64,000 nucleotides of DNA from Thermoflexales bacterium (GTDB lineage Bacteria > Chloroflexota > Anaerolineae > J036 > Brachytrichaceae). The notes beneath the pieces were generated by a model that did no database searches, was not told where the DNA came from, and saw only the letters and a list, made by a program, of their open reading frames with translations. The DNA is taken from the NCBI GenBank assembly GCA_025056965.1, contig JANWVF010000152.1:1-64000 (forward strand). The letters are read 5' to 3'. The translations under genes were made by a program, and so were the position numbers. Every line of letters starts with the position of its first letter. Position 1 is the first letter of the stretch. This document shows positions 5,936-25,936 of this stretch, piece by piece.

Positions 5936-6799
5936 CTACTCCTCCGAAATTGTCACCTCGGCCGGCCCGCGCCCGGTCTCACGATGGCACTTCTCGCAAG
6001 CCGGCTTGACGACGCCTTGCAGATCGAGGAAGAGCGCAGTGTCTAGCGAACGGTGTGCCTGATGGCAGTTCGAGCACTGCAACGTCGTCTCGTAGCGGGC
6101 TAAGCCCAGCGCGATGATCGCCTGTGCATCCGGCGCATCCCTCGGCGCGATCAGCGGCGCACCGGCCTTCCAAGCCTCATATACGTCCGGCAACATGTTG
6201 TGCATGTGGTTGTCCATCCCCGCGACGAGCAGTTGCTCCCGATGGCAAGCGATGCAACCGGCATTGGACAGGTGCGGCGCGCGAAGGCCGAATGTCGTCT
6301 GGGGCACAGTGCGGGTTACCCCGTTGATCACCGTTGTGGTGATGGCCGTCTTCTCCAGCCGCTGATCGTCCTGGCCGGCCAACCAGAGCGTAGCCAACTC
6401 CGCGCTGAGGATCAAGGTGTCCACTCGGTGACGCACCCCGCCGTCCCCGCGATGGCAGTCAATGCAGCGCAGCTCACCTCCCTGGCCGTGAACCTGTTGG
6501 TAGTGATAGCTGGAGAGATCAGGCGCGAGGGCGCCGGCGATCGAGGCCTGGGCGCGATCCACATAGGCGCGGTGCTGCGCCGTGTGGCACGACAGGCAAA
6601 ATGAATCGCGCTCCTGGCGCTCGGAGACCGTGAACAGGCCGGCTATGCCGGCGCCGATGGCGATCAGCGCCACCATGGCGACGAGCGGGCCGGTGGGCGA
6701 CCGGCGCGGACGACGGTAGATTTTGCCCTCGTACGACCAATCGTCATCATCATCGTCGCCCGGCAGCTCGTATTCGTCGGTGATGCGATAGCGCGGCAT
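5936..6799 (-). CDS. Penta-haem c-type cytochrome, NapC/NirT-like
   Basis: A membrane-anchored multihaem cytochrome of 287 aa. The N-terminus is cytoplasmic and carries six consecutive Asp (15-20), then one membrane anchor (about 38-57). Five CxxCH haem sites follow on the outside: CLSCH 68-72, CIDCH 112-116, CIACH 182-186, CSNCH 242-246 and CEKCH 268-272. This layout suits a quinol dehydrogenase or an electron conduit to an extracellular or periplasmic acceptor. It ends the minus-strand complex I block, 6 bp after lgt, so it may be expressed with the respiratory genes. The partner reductase is not visible. Confidence 0.85.
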   Translation of the reverse strand: MPRYRITDEYELPGDDDDDDWSYEGKIYRRPRRSPTGPLVAMVALIAIGAGIAGLFTVSERQERDSFCLSCHTAQHRAYVDRAQASIAGALAPDLSSYHYQQVHGQGGELRCIDCHRGDGGVRHRVDTLILSAELATLWLAGQDDQRLEKTAITTTVINGVTRTVPQTTFGLRAPHLSNAGCIACHREQLLVAGMDNHMHNMLPDVYEAWKAGAPLIAPRDAPDAQAIIALGLARYETTLQCSNCHQAHRSLDTALFLDLQGVVKPACEKCHRETGRGPAEVTISEE

Positions 6800-16580: not shown

Positions 16581-17558
16581 TCATCGTTTCACTTGCACAT
16601 CGCCGGGTAGCGCCACCTCGATGGCGACCCCTCTGCTCTTCGACGCTTTGACGCGTCCGATCACCTCGATCATGTCGCCCGGCTTCAGCTTGACACGCCT
16701 GGCCACTACCTGATACAGCCGCAGGCGCTGCGCAGAAGTCTCATCCCTGATCAACACCTCGATGCCCTTGTCAAACGGCTGAACACGAACGACCTCGGCG
16801 ATCACGCGCACAATCGCATTTTGGTCGTTGCCGCTGATCTCGGACAGGGCATACTGTTTCACGTCGCGCACCGGCGGCGCAACGACGTGAATCCGCTGTG
16901 CCGATCCGGGGGTGATCTCCAGGGCGCCGCGAAAGGCGTTCACCTCACCCGTCACGCGCAGGGTCGCCCCGACGTTGATCTGCTCCGGCTTGCTGAGCGC
17001 ATCAAACACGCGCTCGAAGATCGTGACCGTGATCCTGCCGGTGTCGTCGCGCAGGCCGAGCTTGAAGCCAGCGGAGAAGTTCGACGCCTCGTCCACCACG
17101 CCCTGCACGGTCACGGTCTTGCCGACGTCGCCGAGGCCAATCGTCCCGATAGCCGGAGACGCGATCGGCGGAGCGGGCTTCACGATGACTACGTCCGTCC
17201 CGCGCACCGGCACGATCTGCGCTTCCTTGTTGTAAAAGTCCACCTTGCCGGTGACCTTCACGGTTGCGCCCTCGATCAGTTGATCCGGCCCCGGAGCCTG
17301 CTTCAACGCCCGGTCAAAGAGCACCAGCGTGATCTCGCCGGTATCGTCGCTGACCGCGTAGCGCATGCCGGACTTGAATCGGCGCTCGCTCTGGATGACG
17401 CCCTCGATCGTGACGAATTTGCCTTTATGTCCAGCCGTGATCTTGCCGATAGGCGTGACGCCCCCTTCCACCGCATACACCGGCAACCCTGCGATGAGAG
17501 TCGCAACCAGCGATGCGATGATGGAGAGGTAGATCGTCCGCGCTGCGCTTGTGTTCAC
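16581..17558 (-). CDS. Exported protein with three OB-fold-like repeats
   Basis: A 325-residue protein, not part of standard complex I. Residues about 8-29 form a signal peptide or N-terminal anchor ending near GLPVYA. Three similar units follow, each with a V-x-G-V-V/I segment and a D-D-T-G-x-I-T-L-F-type strand (for example SDDTGEITLVLFDRA and RDDTGRITVTIFERV), then VKVTGKV / LRVTGEV closing strands. This is the repeated pattern of OB-fold domains. The ligand is unknown: nucleic acid, sugar or protein are possible. The start is GTG at 17558, 11 bp after nuoF. A relative lies at 34533-35525. Confidence 0.7.
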   Translation of the reverse strand: MNTSAARTIYLSIIASLVATLIAGLPVYAVEGGVTPIGKITAGHKGKFVTIEGVIQSERRFKSGMRYAVSDDTGEITLVLFDRALKQAPGPDQLIEGATVKVTGKVDFYNKEAQIVPVRGTDVVIVKPAPPIASPAIGTIGLGDVGKTVTVQGVVDEASNFSAGFKLGLRDDTGRITVTIFERVFDALSKPEQINVGATLRVTGEVNAFRGALEITPGSAQRIHVVAPPVRDVKQYALSEISGNDQNAIVRVIAEVVRVQPFDKGIEVLIRDETSAQRLRLYQVVARRVKLKPGDMIEVIGRVKASKSRGVAIEVALPGDVQVKR

Positions 17559-17569
17559 GGCGAAATCGT

Positions 17570-18934
17570 TCAGTGGCGGGCGATGACGCCGTCCGGACCG
17601 GCGATGACGCCTTCGCGGATCAGCTCGTCGGTGTAACCGTTCATCTTGCCGCCCTGATGGTTAGCGATGAACGCCTCATACTCGGCTCGGAAGTGCTTGA
17701 GCGTGCTTTGCATCGGCGATGTGGCAAACTCGCCCAGCAAGCAGAAGCATTTGCCGGACATTTGTGCGGCCACTTCGCCGATCATGTTGACGTCCTCGAG
17801 CGTGCCGCGGCCGGAGAGGATCTTGTCGTAGAGCTTCAGCGCCCAATACGTGCCTTCGCGACACGGGGTGCACTTGCCGCAGCTCTCATGCTTGAAGAAG
17901 CGCACCATTTTGCGCGCCGCCCATACGATGTCCACCGTGTCGTCCAGGATGACGAACGACGCCGAGCCGAGGATCGAACCGGCGGCCTGAACGCTTTCGT
18001 AGTCCAGCTTAGTGTCGAGCGCGCTGGCCGGCAGGATCGGCGCAGACGAGCCGGCAGGCAACACACCCTTCACCGGCCGGCCGTCTATGATGCCGCCGGC
18101 CATCTCGATTAGCTCGCGGACGGTGTATTTGCCCAGCGGCAGCTCGTAGTTGCCCGGGCGCTTCACGCGCCCGCTCACGCAGAAGATCTTCGTGCCCGGG
18201 CTTTTCTCCGTGCCGTACTGGCGATACCACTGCGCGCCGTTCAGCACGATGGGGGGCACGTTGGCCAGAGTCTCCACGTTGTTGATCACCGTCGGCTTGG
18301 CGTATAGGCCCTGCACCGCCGGGAAGGGCGGGCGTAGGCGCGGCTGGCCGAGCTGGCCTTCGAGCGACGATAACAGCGCCGTCTCCTCGCCGCAGATATA
18401 CGCGCCGGCGCCCATGTGGATGTACATATCTATGTCGAAGCCGCTGCCGAGCACGTTTTTACCCAGCATGCCGTGGGCGTAGGCCTCGTCTATGGCCTTC
18501 TGCAGCGTCTTGGCCGGCTCGTAGAACTCGCCGCGCAAATAGATGTAGCTGGTCTTGGCCTGCACAGCATACGCGCACAGCGCCACCCCCTCAATGAGCT
18601 GGTGCGGGTTGCCGTCAATGATTTGGTGATCCTTGAACGTGCCGGCCTCACTCTCGTCGCCGTTGACCACCACATACTTCGGGAAGACATCCTTGGGGAT
18701 GAAGCTCCACTTCACGCCGGTCGGGAAGCCTGCACCGCCGCGCCCACGCAGGCCACTGTCCTTGACGACGGCGGTCACTTCGTCCGGCTTCATCGTCGTC
18801 AATGCTTTCTTCCATGCTTCGTAACCGCCGTTGGCCACGTATACGTCGTATTCGCGAATATCCGGCACGTCAACGTCGCGCAGCAGCACGTGCCGATCCA
18901 TCGTCTTATTCTTTGTCCCGTAGAACCCAGCCAT
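17570..18934 (-). CDS. nuoF: NADH-quinone oxidoreductase subunit F
   Basis: The NADH-binding flavoprotein of complex I with FMN and cluster N3, 454 aa. GLRGRGGAGFPTGVKW is the FMN/NADH loop, GAGAYICGEETALL is the second nucleotide motif, and ESCGKCTPCREGTYW plus a distal Cys in KCFCLLGE are the 4Fe-4S ligands. The ATG at 18934 has GGAAGGAG immediately upstream; a longer in-frame extension has no such site. The OB-fold gene follows by 11 bp. Confidence 0.96.
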   Translation of the reverse strand: MAGFYGTKNKTMDRHVLLRDVDVPDIREYDVYVANGGYEAWKKALTTMKPDEVTAVVKDSGLRGRGGAGFPTGVKWSFIPKDVFPKYVVVNGDESEAGTFKDHQIIDGNPHQLIEGVALCAYAVQAKTSYIYLRGEFYEPAKTLQKAIDEAYAHGMLGKNVLGSGFDIDMYIHMGAGAYICGEETALLSSLEGQLGQPRLRPPFPAVQGLYAKPTVINNVETLANVPPIVLNGAQWYRQYGTEKSPGTKIFCVSGRVKRPGNYELPLGKYTVRELIEMAGGIIDGRPVKGVLPAGSSAPILPASALDTKLDYESVQAAGSILGSASFVILDDTVDIVWAARKMVRFFKHESCGKCTPCREGTYWALKLYDKILSGRGTLEDVNMIGEVAAQMSGKCFCLLGEFATSPMQSTLKHFRAEYEAFIANHQGGKMNGYTDELIREGVIAGPDGVIARH

Positions 18935-18954: not shown

Positions 18955-19308
18955 TCAAGCTAAGGTCGCCCGCATCGGTTGTAGCGAGCACTTGAACGGA
19001 TCCAACACCAACCCCAACACTTCGAGGGTCACCGAACCGAGGAGCGCTTCATCGCCCGGCTCGCCTAGGATGACCGGACTCGTGCCATCCATGCCGGCCA
19101 GCGCGATGTGCGCCTCGGCGATTGGCCGGACAATCACCGTGCCGTCGGCCAGCGTGGAGGTCATCTGTCGCTTGGGGTGCAGCTCCAGCTCGCGCCAGAC
19201 CGAATCCGGCAGCAGCGTATAGGTTGCGCCGCTGTCCACCAAGAAATTCACGCGTGCCTGCTTGCCGCTCGGCCCGGTCACCAGGCCCTCGATGAAGGTC
19301 AGTCCCAT
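18955..19308 (-). CDS. Retropepsin-like aspartic protease
   Basis: A 117-residue clan-AA aspartic protease domain. The catalytic motif is FLVDSGATYTLLP with Asp25 in D-S-G-A, and the C-terminal pattern LLGSVTLEVLGLVLDP is the second conserved segment of single-domain retropepsins. Such proteins are active as homodimers. No signal peptide or membrane segment is visible, so it is cytoplasmic. Its ATG is 2 bp past the nuoE stop, and its stop is 20 bp before nuoF, so it is expressed with complex I. The substrate is unknown; a proteolytic role in complex I maturation is only a guess. Confidence 0.8.
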   Translation of the reverse strand: MGLTFIEGLVTGPSGKQARVNFLVDSGATYTLLPDSVWRELELHPKRQMTSTLADGTVIVRPIAEAHIALAGMDGTSPVILGEPGDEALLGSVTLEVLGLVLDPFKCSLQPMRATLA

Positions 19309-19310
19309 GT

Positions 19311-19787
19311 TCAGCTCCGCGAAAGCTCGTCCACCAATCGGTCGAACGACTCTTCGGTCAGGTCATAGTGATACTCGCGGTTCACCTGCGCCACCGGCGC
19401 GCGGTCGCACGCGGCGATGCACATGACGGTGTTCAGGGTGAACTTGCCGTCAGGCGTGGTCTGTCCGGCGCGAATGCCCAGCTTCTTCTCGCAGTGAGTC
19501 ACGAATTTGTCCGCGCCGCGCAACGCACACGGCAAATCATCGCACACGTCAATGACATATCGGCCGACCGGCTGCTTATAGAACATCGTGTAAAAGCCGA
19601 CGATGCTCCTCACCTCGGTCGGGTCGCAACCGATGATCTCGGCCACCTCGCGCACGGCTTCATCGTTGCAATAGCCATACTCTTCCTGGGCGATATACAG
19701 CAGCGGCATAACCGCGCTGCGCTTGCGCTCCGGCGGATATTTGGCCAGCACCTTTTCGATGTCAGCGGCTCGTTTCTCTTTCAACAT
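19311..19787 (-). CDS. nuoE: NADH-quinone oxidoreductase subunit E
   Basis: Thioredoxin-like 2Fe-2S subunit of the NADH module, 158 aa, carrying cluster N1a. The ligands are in the patterns C-x4-C (VCDDLPC) and C-x3-C (MCIAAC), as in the family. ATG 19787 is used; a TTG two codons upstream is possible. It is followed directly by the protease gene. Confidence 0.95.
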   Translation of the reverse strand: MLKEKRAADIEKVLAKYPPERKRSAVMPLLYIAQEEYGYCNDEAVREVAEIIGCDPTEVRSIVGFYTMFYKQPVGRYVIDVCDDLPCALRGADKFVTHCEKKLGIRAGQTTPDGKFTLNTVMCIAACDRAPVAQVNREYHYDLTEESFDRLVDELSRS

Positions 19788-19867
19788 AGTCAAATTTTGG
19801 TCAAGTCATAGGCGATGGATCGTCGCGCATCCATACTGGCGGATGACCGACGGCGCGCAACGCATCG

Positions 19868-22885: not shown

Positions 22886-25800
22886 TCACGAAATCGGCGG
22901 TAGGCCGTCTGCGTCGCTGGCCTGTGCCGGCCTGCGCCCGGCCTCACGGCGTTCTGCTAAGCGTCGGGCGACTACCTCGACCGGATGCAGCGCAGCGCGA
23001 CCGGTGAAATGCGAGATTTGCTCGCGGCAGGATGTGCCCGGCGCGACGATCAACGTCTCGCGGTCGGCAGCGCGCACGGCCGGTAGCAACGCCAATTCGC
23101 CGATGCGCTGCGACAGCGCGTAGTGCTCGGCCTCGTAGCCGAACGCGCCGGCCATGCCGCAACAGCTCGCCTCTATCTCGCGCACATCGTATCCGGCAAA
23201 CGTCAAGAGCGCGCGCGTTGCCTGCGTGCCCCAGAGCGCCTTTTGATGGCAGTGACCGTGCAGCAAGACCTTCGGTCGCTCGCCGTTGGTCTCTGACCGG
23301 CCATCGGCCAACCCGGTGAAGGGTAGTCCGCGCGCGATGAGGAACTCTTCGACGCTCTGCGTCATCTGCGCGACGACTTCGGCGTCCTCGCCGGGGAGCA
23401 AGTCACGGTAGTCATCGCGCAGGGCGCTCACGCAGCTTGGCTCGAGGCCGAGGATCGGCACGTTCTGCCGAGCCAGTGGAGCAAGCTGAGCCAGGTTAAA
23501 GCGCGCCCACGACAACATGGCCCGCGGCTGACCTTGCGACAGCAGCGGTCGGCCGCAGCAGCGCCACGGTGGCACGCTCACCTCGTAGCCGGCCGCCGTG
23601 AGCACCTGCACCGCCGCAATGGCTACCTGCGGATGGTTATAGCGCGAGAAGGTATCCACGAACAGCACCACGCGCGGCTTCGTCCCATCGGCCGGGCGCG
23701 AACGCCGCCAGTGCGCCCACCACCGATCGAACGTCTGGCGCTGGAACACCGGCAGCATGCGTTCCGGCGCGATGCGCAGCGCGCGCTTGACCACGGAGCG
23801 ATTGGCCAGCCAGTTGGAGAGCGGCGCCAGCGCCGACGCCAGCGGCGCGAAGGACGCGATGCGCCCCAGCAACCATGGGCGCAGCGGCAGGCCGCGCGCA
23901 TCATAGAAGTGCGCGAGAAACTCGCTCTTCAGCTTGCTCATGTCAACTCCGGCGGCACATTCGGTCGCGCAGGCTTTACAGCTCAGGCACAGATCCAGCG
24001 CGGCCTTGACCTCATCCAACGAGGGTTTAGGCGATGCATGGCCGGCTGCCAGTCGCTTCTCGGAGAGAAACTCGCGCAGCAGGTTGGCCCGCCCGCGGGT
24101 GCTGTGCAGCTCCTCGCGCGTGGCGCGATAAGAAGGACACATGACGCCACCTTCGAGCTTGCGGCACACGCCGCTGCCGTTACATTGCTCCACCAGCGCC
24201 GCGAAGCTACCGTTGTGGTGGAAGGCAAAGGTCGTGCGCATCGGGCGGGTGGCGTAATCCGGGCCGTAGCGCAGGTGAGCCTCCATCTCGACGGCGCGCA
24301 CCTTCTTGCCGGGGTTGAGCAAACCGCGCGGGTCGAAGGCATCCTTCAACTCGCAGAACGCTTGATATACGCGCGGTCCGAAGAGCGCCTCGTTCTGGTG
24401 AGAGCGCTCGTAGCCGTCACCATGCTCGCCGCTCATCGCGCCGCCCAGTTCGCGGCACAGCGCCAGCGCATCGCGGGCGATGCCTTTGAGTTGGGCGACG
24501 CCGTGCGCCGTATGCAAGTTCACCAGCGGCCGCACGTGCAACACGCCGGCGCTGGCATGAGCGTAGAAGGCGCCCTCGGTACCGTAGGCGGCGAAGATCG
24601 CGCTCAACCGCTCAACGTATTCGGCCAGCCGCTCCACCGGCACGGCCACGTCCTCCACCACGCTGACCGGCTTGGCCTGGCTGCGGATGCTGGTGAGCAC
24701 GTTCAAGCCGATCTTGCGCACATACCACACATCAGCTTGCGCCGCCGGCTCGAACAGCGGGCGCAGCGCGCAAGCCAGATGCTCGCGCGCCACCAAACGC
24801 TGTAGGCGCTCAACGCCGGCGCGCACTTCGGCCTCGCATTCGCCGTCGAACTCGATCACCAGCAAGCCTTCCAGCGTAGCTTGGCCGTCCAGCCAGCCGA
24901 TGCGCCCGCGACACTCCGGCAGCTCGCGGGCGAGGCGGATGAACATGCCGCCAATGAGCTCGATGGCGGCCGGTTCGGTAGTGAGCAAGGCCGGCACGGC
25001 GCGCATCGCCTCGGTCAACCCATCAAATGCCGTGATGACCAGCGCCGTGTGTTTCGGCTTGGGGAATAGGTGGAGTGTCGCCTCGACGACCACGCCGAGC
25101 GTGCCCTCGGCGCCGGCAAACAGAGGCGCCAGGTTGAGCCGGCTGATCTGCCGGAGGTGGTTCTCCAGGTTGCTGCCTTGGCGCCGGGCGTTGGCTTCAG
25201 TCAGGCAAGCAGTGGGGCGCGCCGGATCATAGGCCAGCATCTCGACCATGTAATCCAGGTTGTAGCCGCTGGCGCGCCGCCATACCTTCGGGAAGTCGCG
25301 GCGAATGGCATCGGCGTGGGTGTGGGCAATGCGCGTTACATCGGTGATGAGGCGATTGACCTCCGGCGCTGAGCCCTCCCCTACCCCGCTGGGGCCGAAC
25401 TCGGCCAGCGTGCCATCCGCGAGCACTGCTTTGAGCATGGTGACGTTGTCGGCAGTCATGCCATAGCGGATGGAGTGCGAGCCGGTCGCGTTTGCGCCGA
25501 TGACGCCGCCGATGGCAGCGCGTTCGGCGCTGGCCGGGTCAGGGCCGAACTGCAGCCCGTGCTGGGCTAGGCGTTTGTTCAATTGGCCCAGGACGATGCC
25601 GGGTTGTACGCGCACCGCGCGCCCGCCCGTGTCTAGGTCGAGCAGCGCGTCCATGTATTTGGTGAAGTCAATGACGACGCCTGGGCCGATGGCCGAGCCG
25701 CACAAGCTGCTGCCGCCACCGCGCGGGGTGACCGGCACGCCGTGTTCCGCGCAGAGCGTCACCGTCGCTATCACATCGTCGGTCGTCTTGGGCAGCACCA

Positions 25801-25936
25801 CACCCAGCGGCAGCGTCTGATAGTTGCTGGCATCGGTGCTGTAGATCAACCGCGTAGGTGTATCGAAGCGAACCTCGCCGACCACGTGGCGCGCGAGCGA
25901 TCGCGCCAGCGGATGACCATCGGTAATCGCGGACAC
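22886..25936 (-). CDS. FAD-binding / Fe-S D-2-hydroxyacid dehydrogenase, YdiJ-like
   Basis: A 1016-residue protein with the layout of E. coli YdiJ (about the same length), a membrane-associated D-2-hydroxyglutarate/D-lactate-type dehydrogenase. In order: a PCMH FAD domain (PRGGGSSLCGSAIGPGVVID around residue 75), an FAD-oxidase C-terminal domain, two Fe-S regions (GVCRKLEGGVMCPS and CLSCKACATECAAGVDMSK), and two CCG domains (WRCCGRPLLSQG and ASCCGMAGAFGYE). It should feed electrons from a 2-hydroxyacid to the quinone pool or another acceptor. Start GTG 25936 has a TAAAAT box 7 nt upstream and no Shine-Dalgarno site. It lies directly upstream of nuoA. Confidence 0.85.
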   Translation of the reverse strand: MSAITDGHPLARSLARHVVGEVRFDTPTRLIYSTDASNYQTLPLGVVLPKTTDDVIATVTLCAEHGVPVTPRGGGSSLCGSAIGPGVVIDFTKYMDALLDLDTGGRAVRVQPGIVLGQLNKRLAQHGLQFGPDPASAERAAIGGVIGANATGSHSIRYGMTADNVTMLKAVLADGTLAEFGPSGVGEGSAPEVNRLITDVTRIAHTHADAIRRDFPKVWRRASGYNLDYMVEMLAYDPARPTACLTEANARRQGSNLENHLRQISRLNLAPLFAGAEGTLGVVVEATLHLFPKPKHTALVITAFDGLTEAMRAVPALLTTEPAAIELIGGMFIRLARELPECRGRIGWLDGQATLEGLLVIEFDGECEAEVRAGVERLQRLVAREHLACALRPLFEPAAQADVWYVRKIGLNVLTSIRSQAKPVSVVEDVAVPVERLAEYVERLSAIFAAYGTEGAFYAHASAGVLHVRPLVNLHTAHGVAQLKGIARDALALCRELGGAMSGEHGDGYERSHQNEALFGPRVYQAFCELKDAFDPRGLLNPGKKVRAVEMEAHLRYGPDYATRPMRTTFAFHHNGSFAALVEQCNGSGVCRKLEGGVMCPSYRATREELHSTRGRANLLREFLSEKRLAAGHASPKPSLDEVKAALDLCLSCKACATECAAGVDMSKLKSEFLAHFYDARGLPLRPWLLGRIASFAPLASALAPLSNWLANRSVVKRALRIAPERMLPVFQRQTFDRWWAHWRRSRPADGTKPRVVLFVDTFSRYNHPQVAIAAVQVLTAAGYEVSVPPWRCCGRPLLSQGQPRAMLSWARFNLAQLAPLARQNVPILGLEPSCVSALRDDYRDLLPGEDAEVVAQMTQSVEEFLIARGLPFTGLADGRSETNGERPKVLLHGHCHQKALWGTQATRALLTFAGYDVREIEASCCGMAGAFGYEAEHYALSQRIGELALLPAVRAADRETLIVAPGTSCREQISHFTGRAALHPVEVVARRLAERREAGRRPAQASDADGLPPIS

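Follow-up and report, generated by a model that had tools for sequence, protein, structure and literature searches.

A retropepsin-like protease gene between nuoE and nuoF in a Thermoflexales bacterium is probably a lineage-specific operon passenger

The protease gene and its place in the nuo operon

The window analysed here, 64,000 nucleotides in all, belongs to the draft genome (165 contigs) of a hot-spring bacterium closely related to Candidatus Roseilinea (Thermoflexales). A small gene lies between two complex I genes on the same strand, and the features of the locus are the following.

17570..18934, minus strand: nuoF, FMN-binding subunit, 454 aa (profile matches; start taken from homologues)
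18955..19308, minus strand: single-domain retropepsin-like (clan AA) aspartic protease gene, 117 aa (Pfam, NCBIfam, alignment, AlphaFold, Foldseek)
19036..19044, minus strand: Leu-Leu-Gly, residues 89-91, the clan AA hydrophobic-hydrophobic-Gly element (at least 90% conserved, 35 homologues)
19225..19236, minus strand: catalytic motif Asp-Ser-Gly-Ala, residues 25-28 (no variation at D, S or G among 35 homologues)
19311..19793, minus strand: nuoE, NADH-quinone oxidoreductase subunit E, 160 aa (profile matches)
19315..19318, minus strand: GGAG, a putative Shine-Dalgarno-like element within the nuoE 3' end, 6 nt ahead of the protease ATG (read from the sequence)

The nuoE stop codon occupies 19311-19313, leaving a gap of 2 bp to the protease gene, and 20 bp separate the latter from the nuoF start at 18934, which was set by homologues (the longest nuoF ORF would begin at 18991). 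The first-pass annotation had described a compact DSGA-type protease at these distances, and the gaps, the Pfam matches and the structural model all agree with it. Its further claim, that the gene must be co-transcribed and probably co-translated with the NADH module, stands in softer form: the placement fits co-transcription, which is likely, and with GGAG inside the end of nuoE translational coupling is probable.

Two Pfam families match the protein above their curated cut-offs (PF13650, E = 1.4e-9, 38.9 bits vs 24.3; PF13975, E = 1.7e-9, 38.6 bits vs 28.2). The NCBIfam model TIGR03698, 'clan AA aspartic protease', also matches (E = 1.3e-12), but at 48.0 bits, or 47.5 in a search of the whole genome, the score is under the cut-off of 57.35 and the protein falls outside the family as curated; all 35 aligned homologues match this model at E <= 0.001. 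In the 35-sequence alignment D25, S26 and G27 are invariant, A28 is conserved to at least 90% like L89, L90 and G91, and the window protein thus carries both the D-T/S-G-A/S motif and the hydrophobic-hydrophobic-Gly motif, the latter named as in PMC2761423. It departs from the consensus at two nearly invariant positions (F51 is Ser and R107 is Cys, in window numbering), yet retains the catalytic motif. Unlike curated TIGR03698 members, it is part of a tight subfamily with a ILGEPGDEALLG stretch.

Predicted fold and relationship to known proteases

The AlphaFold model, built on 35 sequences and predicted as a single chain, has a pLDDT of 90.4 and a pTM of 0.80. Foldseek matched it best to HIV-1 protease (E = 9.8e-6) and almost as well to Ddi1, and VIA-align gave Z = 11.7 for HIV-1 protease and about 11 for Ddi1 entries, from a fold-library list that leaves room for other folds. 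A retropepsin fold is supported by Pfam, the predicted model and Foldseek alike. By analogy with retropepsins, the protease would work as a homodimer with one catalytic Asp per subunit.

In ORF length (about 120 aa), D-S/T-G motif and fold, the protein resembles the prokaryotic single-domain clan AA peptidases of COG5550 and TIGR03698 (for instance, A. fulgidus AF_0612), and we take the window-type proteases to belong to COG5550. The best reading is that the gene is a member of this already known clan AA family. Such prokaryotic single-domain peptidases, COG5550 and an A. fulgidus member included, are among those treated in PMC2642776. The fold is shared with the RVP domain of eukaryotic Ddi1/Ddi2 and with HIV-1 protease; however, sequence identity is just 9-20% in the structural match list, and unlike Ddi1/Ddi2 and retroviral proteases the window protein has neither extra domains nor a surrounding retroelement. 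Retropepsin-like enzymes are also present in bacteria as RC1339/APRc of Rickettsia (structure 5c9b, Z = 10.9 against our model) and RimB of Pseudomonas, both presumably of families different from the window protease. RimB strips glutamates from polyglutamylated RpsF, according to PMC11957791. The Pfam scan showed no rim genes among the scanned neighbours of the window protease.

Selection on the gene and its linkage with nuo in the Brachytrichaceae

Orthologues 81-88% identical occupy the same site in six other genomes, and dN/dS of the protease is 0.046-0.147 over 21 pairs, compared with 0.029-0.124 for nuoE and 0.033-0.087 for nuoF. The conserved site and these ratios argue that the ORF is not a chance one. 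Moreover, the purifying selection shows, as far as codon comparison goes, that it encodes a working protein retained for function. Between the two genera that carry the gene, dS of the protease is 1.3-2.0, so that synonymous sites are near saturation.

A close orthologue was found in 7 of the 28 family genomes, the window genome included, and in all seven it lies between nuoE and nuoF, very tightly packed in one genus and closely in the second. The remaining 21 genomes lack a close orthologue, while a nuoF-type match is present in 28/28. Among 30 fetched nuoF loci, 26 are of the complex I type and seven of these have the protease gene; one locus (L031) starts inside nuoF, where the nuoE-nuoF gap cannot be judged. 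Divergent second retropepsin-like copies (L008, L009 and L010; 27-28% identity) occur in three members of the genus (G019, G020 and G021), with none of the window nuo genes near them.

Two genomes placed inside gene-bearing lineages on the nuoE+nuoF tree, G017 and G022, retain both ends of the gene region in their nuoE-nuoF gap, about 20 bp at the 5' side and about 30 bp at the 3' side, with the middle gone. In comparison with the closest relatives, this similarity was reached in 0 of 500 shuffles. Since both ends are kept without the middle, the gap sequences indicate that these two genomes once had the gene and lost it, with complex I retained. A single gain followed by several losses seems the most plausible history for the family, but carriers and non-carriers interleave on the tree, at least four changes are needed, and the nuoE-nuoF gaps of G016, G018 and G012 hold no clear scar.

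Homologues outside the family

A search across the class gave matches in 37/396 genomes (E <= 1e-6), and 54 loci came from a scan of one genome per species. Five of these (L065-L069) adjoin nuo genes and, by their contig sizes, apparently belong to family genomes. At the remaining 49 genome-contig loci no homologue lies beside nuo genes, nor at any of 23 class loci outside the family (the genomes are partly shared). The first-pass annotation had held that lack of conservation in relatives, or a conserved position unrelated to nuo, would speak against its linkage. By this standard the linkage is refuted outside the family, where the homologues occupy other positions; among the seven family orthologues it is complete.

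These homologues, about 40-70% identical, are spread over many phyla and follow or split other operons, such as sdhC/sdhA in Thermoflexus, ubiX/ubiE in other Chloroflexota, and pheS/pheT. Further neighbours are deoC, etfA, acs, a radical-SAM activase-like gene, rmlD, dus and acyl-CoA dehydrogenase. The names rest on Pfam names and inspection by eye (30 proteins picked by eye from ORFs around the 49 loci were scanned), and some loci at contig ends (e.g. L055, L081 and L104) have one neighbour out of sight. Additional copies, placed by eye without a Pfam scan, adjoin recA, pyrG, a trpG/pabA-type gene and tilS, sdhB/sucC, gltB and, in a Methanophagales archaeon, an A-ATPase subunit pair, where the copy is a divergent paralogue (about 33% identity).

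In a protein tree of 54 rows selected among the loci, with contexts labelled by hand and several settings represented by one row, most multi-row settings form one clade each (nuo 100/97, sdh 97/88, ubiXE 97/94, deoC 100/98), the pheS rows being an exception. This sequence-based pattern is what horizontal spread of the gene with many independent landings would produce. The gene is rare, being found at E <= 1e-25 in 10/400 genomes of the phylum and in 11/294 of the phylum of G742; this genome itself has 12 copies at E <= 1e-12, divergent paralogues included.

Possible traces of integration and mobility

At two loci, the 3' end of the upstream gene recurs in part behind the homologue. One locus (L082, 6001-6450) has a second copy of the final pheS codons, the other (L092, 2033-3926) a second copy of the 3' half of rmlD with 77% identity; on sequence grounds these partial copies are probable traces of integration. 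Repeats of this type would be expected after one-sided homologous recombination of incoming DNA. The nuo site showed no flanking repeat of this kind. Flanking repeats elsewhere are mostly short, dispersed and of low complexity, or distant from the gene, for instance a 68-bp repeat at one locus recorded twice (L046/L075), taken as dispersed, and a 125-bp repeat over 500 bp from the homologue (L086). Short dispersed repeats of the CACAGAGG, ACGCAGAG and GACAAGGTG types were observed near four homologues (L048, L056, L074 and L093).

We found no preference for operons. A gene on the same strand lay within 120 bp upstream at 15/29 protease loci vs 64/173 controls (p = 0.15), and there were such neighbours on both sides at 7/29 vs 36/173 (p = 0.63), in a control built on crude gene calls from which 15 loci sharing a kept setting and loci with <800 bp on a side had been excluded beforehand. 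Hence, as far as this control goes, the nuo position calls for no particular explanation. A link with flavoprotein genes (nuoF, sdhA, etfA, ubiX, acyl-CoA dehydrogenase and dus), suggested by the first set of neighbours and stated in advance of the test, was dropped because the neighbours at 34 further loci did not follow the pattern. Those nameable by eye were pyrG, trpG/pabA-type and tilS, recA, sdhB/sucC, the A-ATPase pair and gltB, and L169, L171 and L186 repeat places already counted, with L122 near L108.

No phage record and no viral contig held a homologue, PHROGs and the PADLOC defence models gave no matches, and plasmid records gave only two, in Synechocystis at about 32% identity; by occurrence in such records, the gene does not belong to phages, plasmids or viruses. 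No partner gene recurs across the homologue neighbourhoods compared.

It is conceivable, if unlikely, that these genes form a one-gene mobile family, in which a strongly conserved retropepsin would repeatedly cross between phyla, settle at housekeeping gene 3' ends and so enter essential operons, with nuoE, sdhC, pheS, ubiX, recA and A-ATPase subunit E as targets and the host gene end brought along or duplicated. We regard it as quite improbable that a selfish single-gene element, inserting at gene 3' ends and duplicating part of its target, has the protease as its payload. The duplicated pheS and rmlD ends, the many neighbourhoods in distant phyla and the multiple copies in some genomes, such as G742, would fit this; however, the clear duplications are only two and equally explained by one-sided recombination, the other repeats are of the kinds described above, no companion gene recurs, and the setting is stable within clades once placed.

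A role in complex I?

The first-pass annotation had suggested that the protease might process a complex I subunit or control assembly. The lengths of 14 neighbouring operon proteins do not distinguish genomes with the protease gene from those lacking it (one NuoB row was badly called), nor do diagnostic columns exceed those of many other splits; NuoG came lowest, with 33/330 splits as high, in a count made without one NuoL and four NuoM rows cut by contig ends. By title and start of abstract, the open-licence literature searched yielded no report of this gene inside a nuo operon.

We weighed a complex-I-specific maturation or quality-control protease, which would trim or degrade NuoE, NuoF, NuoG or another subunit and owe its place in the operon to this activity. 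The tight packing between nuoE and nuoF and the purifying selection are what such an enzyme would show, but G017/G022 lost the gene and kept a scar, it is missing from other genomes that keep nuo, operon proteins do not track it, and the linkage, seen in one family and there in 7/28 genomes, is not that of an accessory or assembly factor, which should recur with nuo across lineages. We consider this role very improbable. The protease could still act on complex I in the gene-bearing lineages and on other targets elsewhere.

That it is half of a toxin-antitoxin or defence module is hardly credible: the distribution is patchy (10/400 phylum genomes) and some homologues adjoin PIN, HEPN-like or Uma2 genes (PIN and HEPN by eye), but there is neither a constant partner nor a match in PADLOC, PHROGs or phage records.

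The protease as a probable operon passenger

The hitchhiker, the third option of the first-pass annotation, is favoured by the family-limited linkage, the loss with a scar and the different settings elsewhere. We consider it probable (about 0.82) that the gene is an operon passenger, a horizontally spread clan AA retropepsin with its own cytosolic substrate and without a special role in complex I. The gene would have entered the nuoE-nuoF junction a single time, in an ancestor of this Thermoflexales lineage, and been carried in the operon since, with several later losses in which nuo was kept. Read-through from the nuo promoter, probably together with translational coupling, would supply its expression, and the homodimer may cleave a cytosolic peptide or protein rather than a complex I subunit. 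What speaks against a mere passenger is that the linkage has lasted until synonymous sites were nearly saturated, and some benefit of the nuo position is therefore possible.

Function should accordingly be read from operon position with caution, as the insert between nuoE and nuoF appears to be a lineage-specific passenger. The little-studied and well-conserved bacterial subfamily may also be of use for tracing the origin of clan AA proteases.

Other genes near the nuo operon

Between nuoF and nuoG lies a gene for a 325-aa OB-fold protein (16581-17558, minus strand; PF01336 in three stretches) with an apparent N-terminal signal segment, judged by eye. It is found at 19 of the 26 complex-I-type family loci, more constantly than the protease, and in the rest of the class it has weaker matches, often within larger ORFs. 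Upstream of nuoA on the same strand, 22886-25936 (minus) encodes a 1016-aa fusion of an FAD-linked oxidase with 4Fe-4S/CCG domains. Near the nuoM end, 5936-6799 (minus strand) encodes a 287-aa protein with several CxxCH motifs, by eye probably a multihaem cytochrome.
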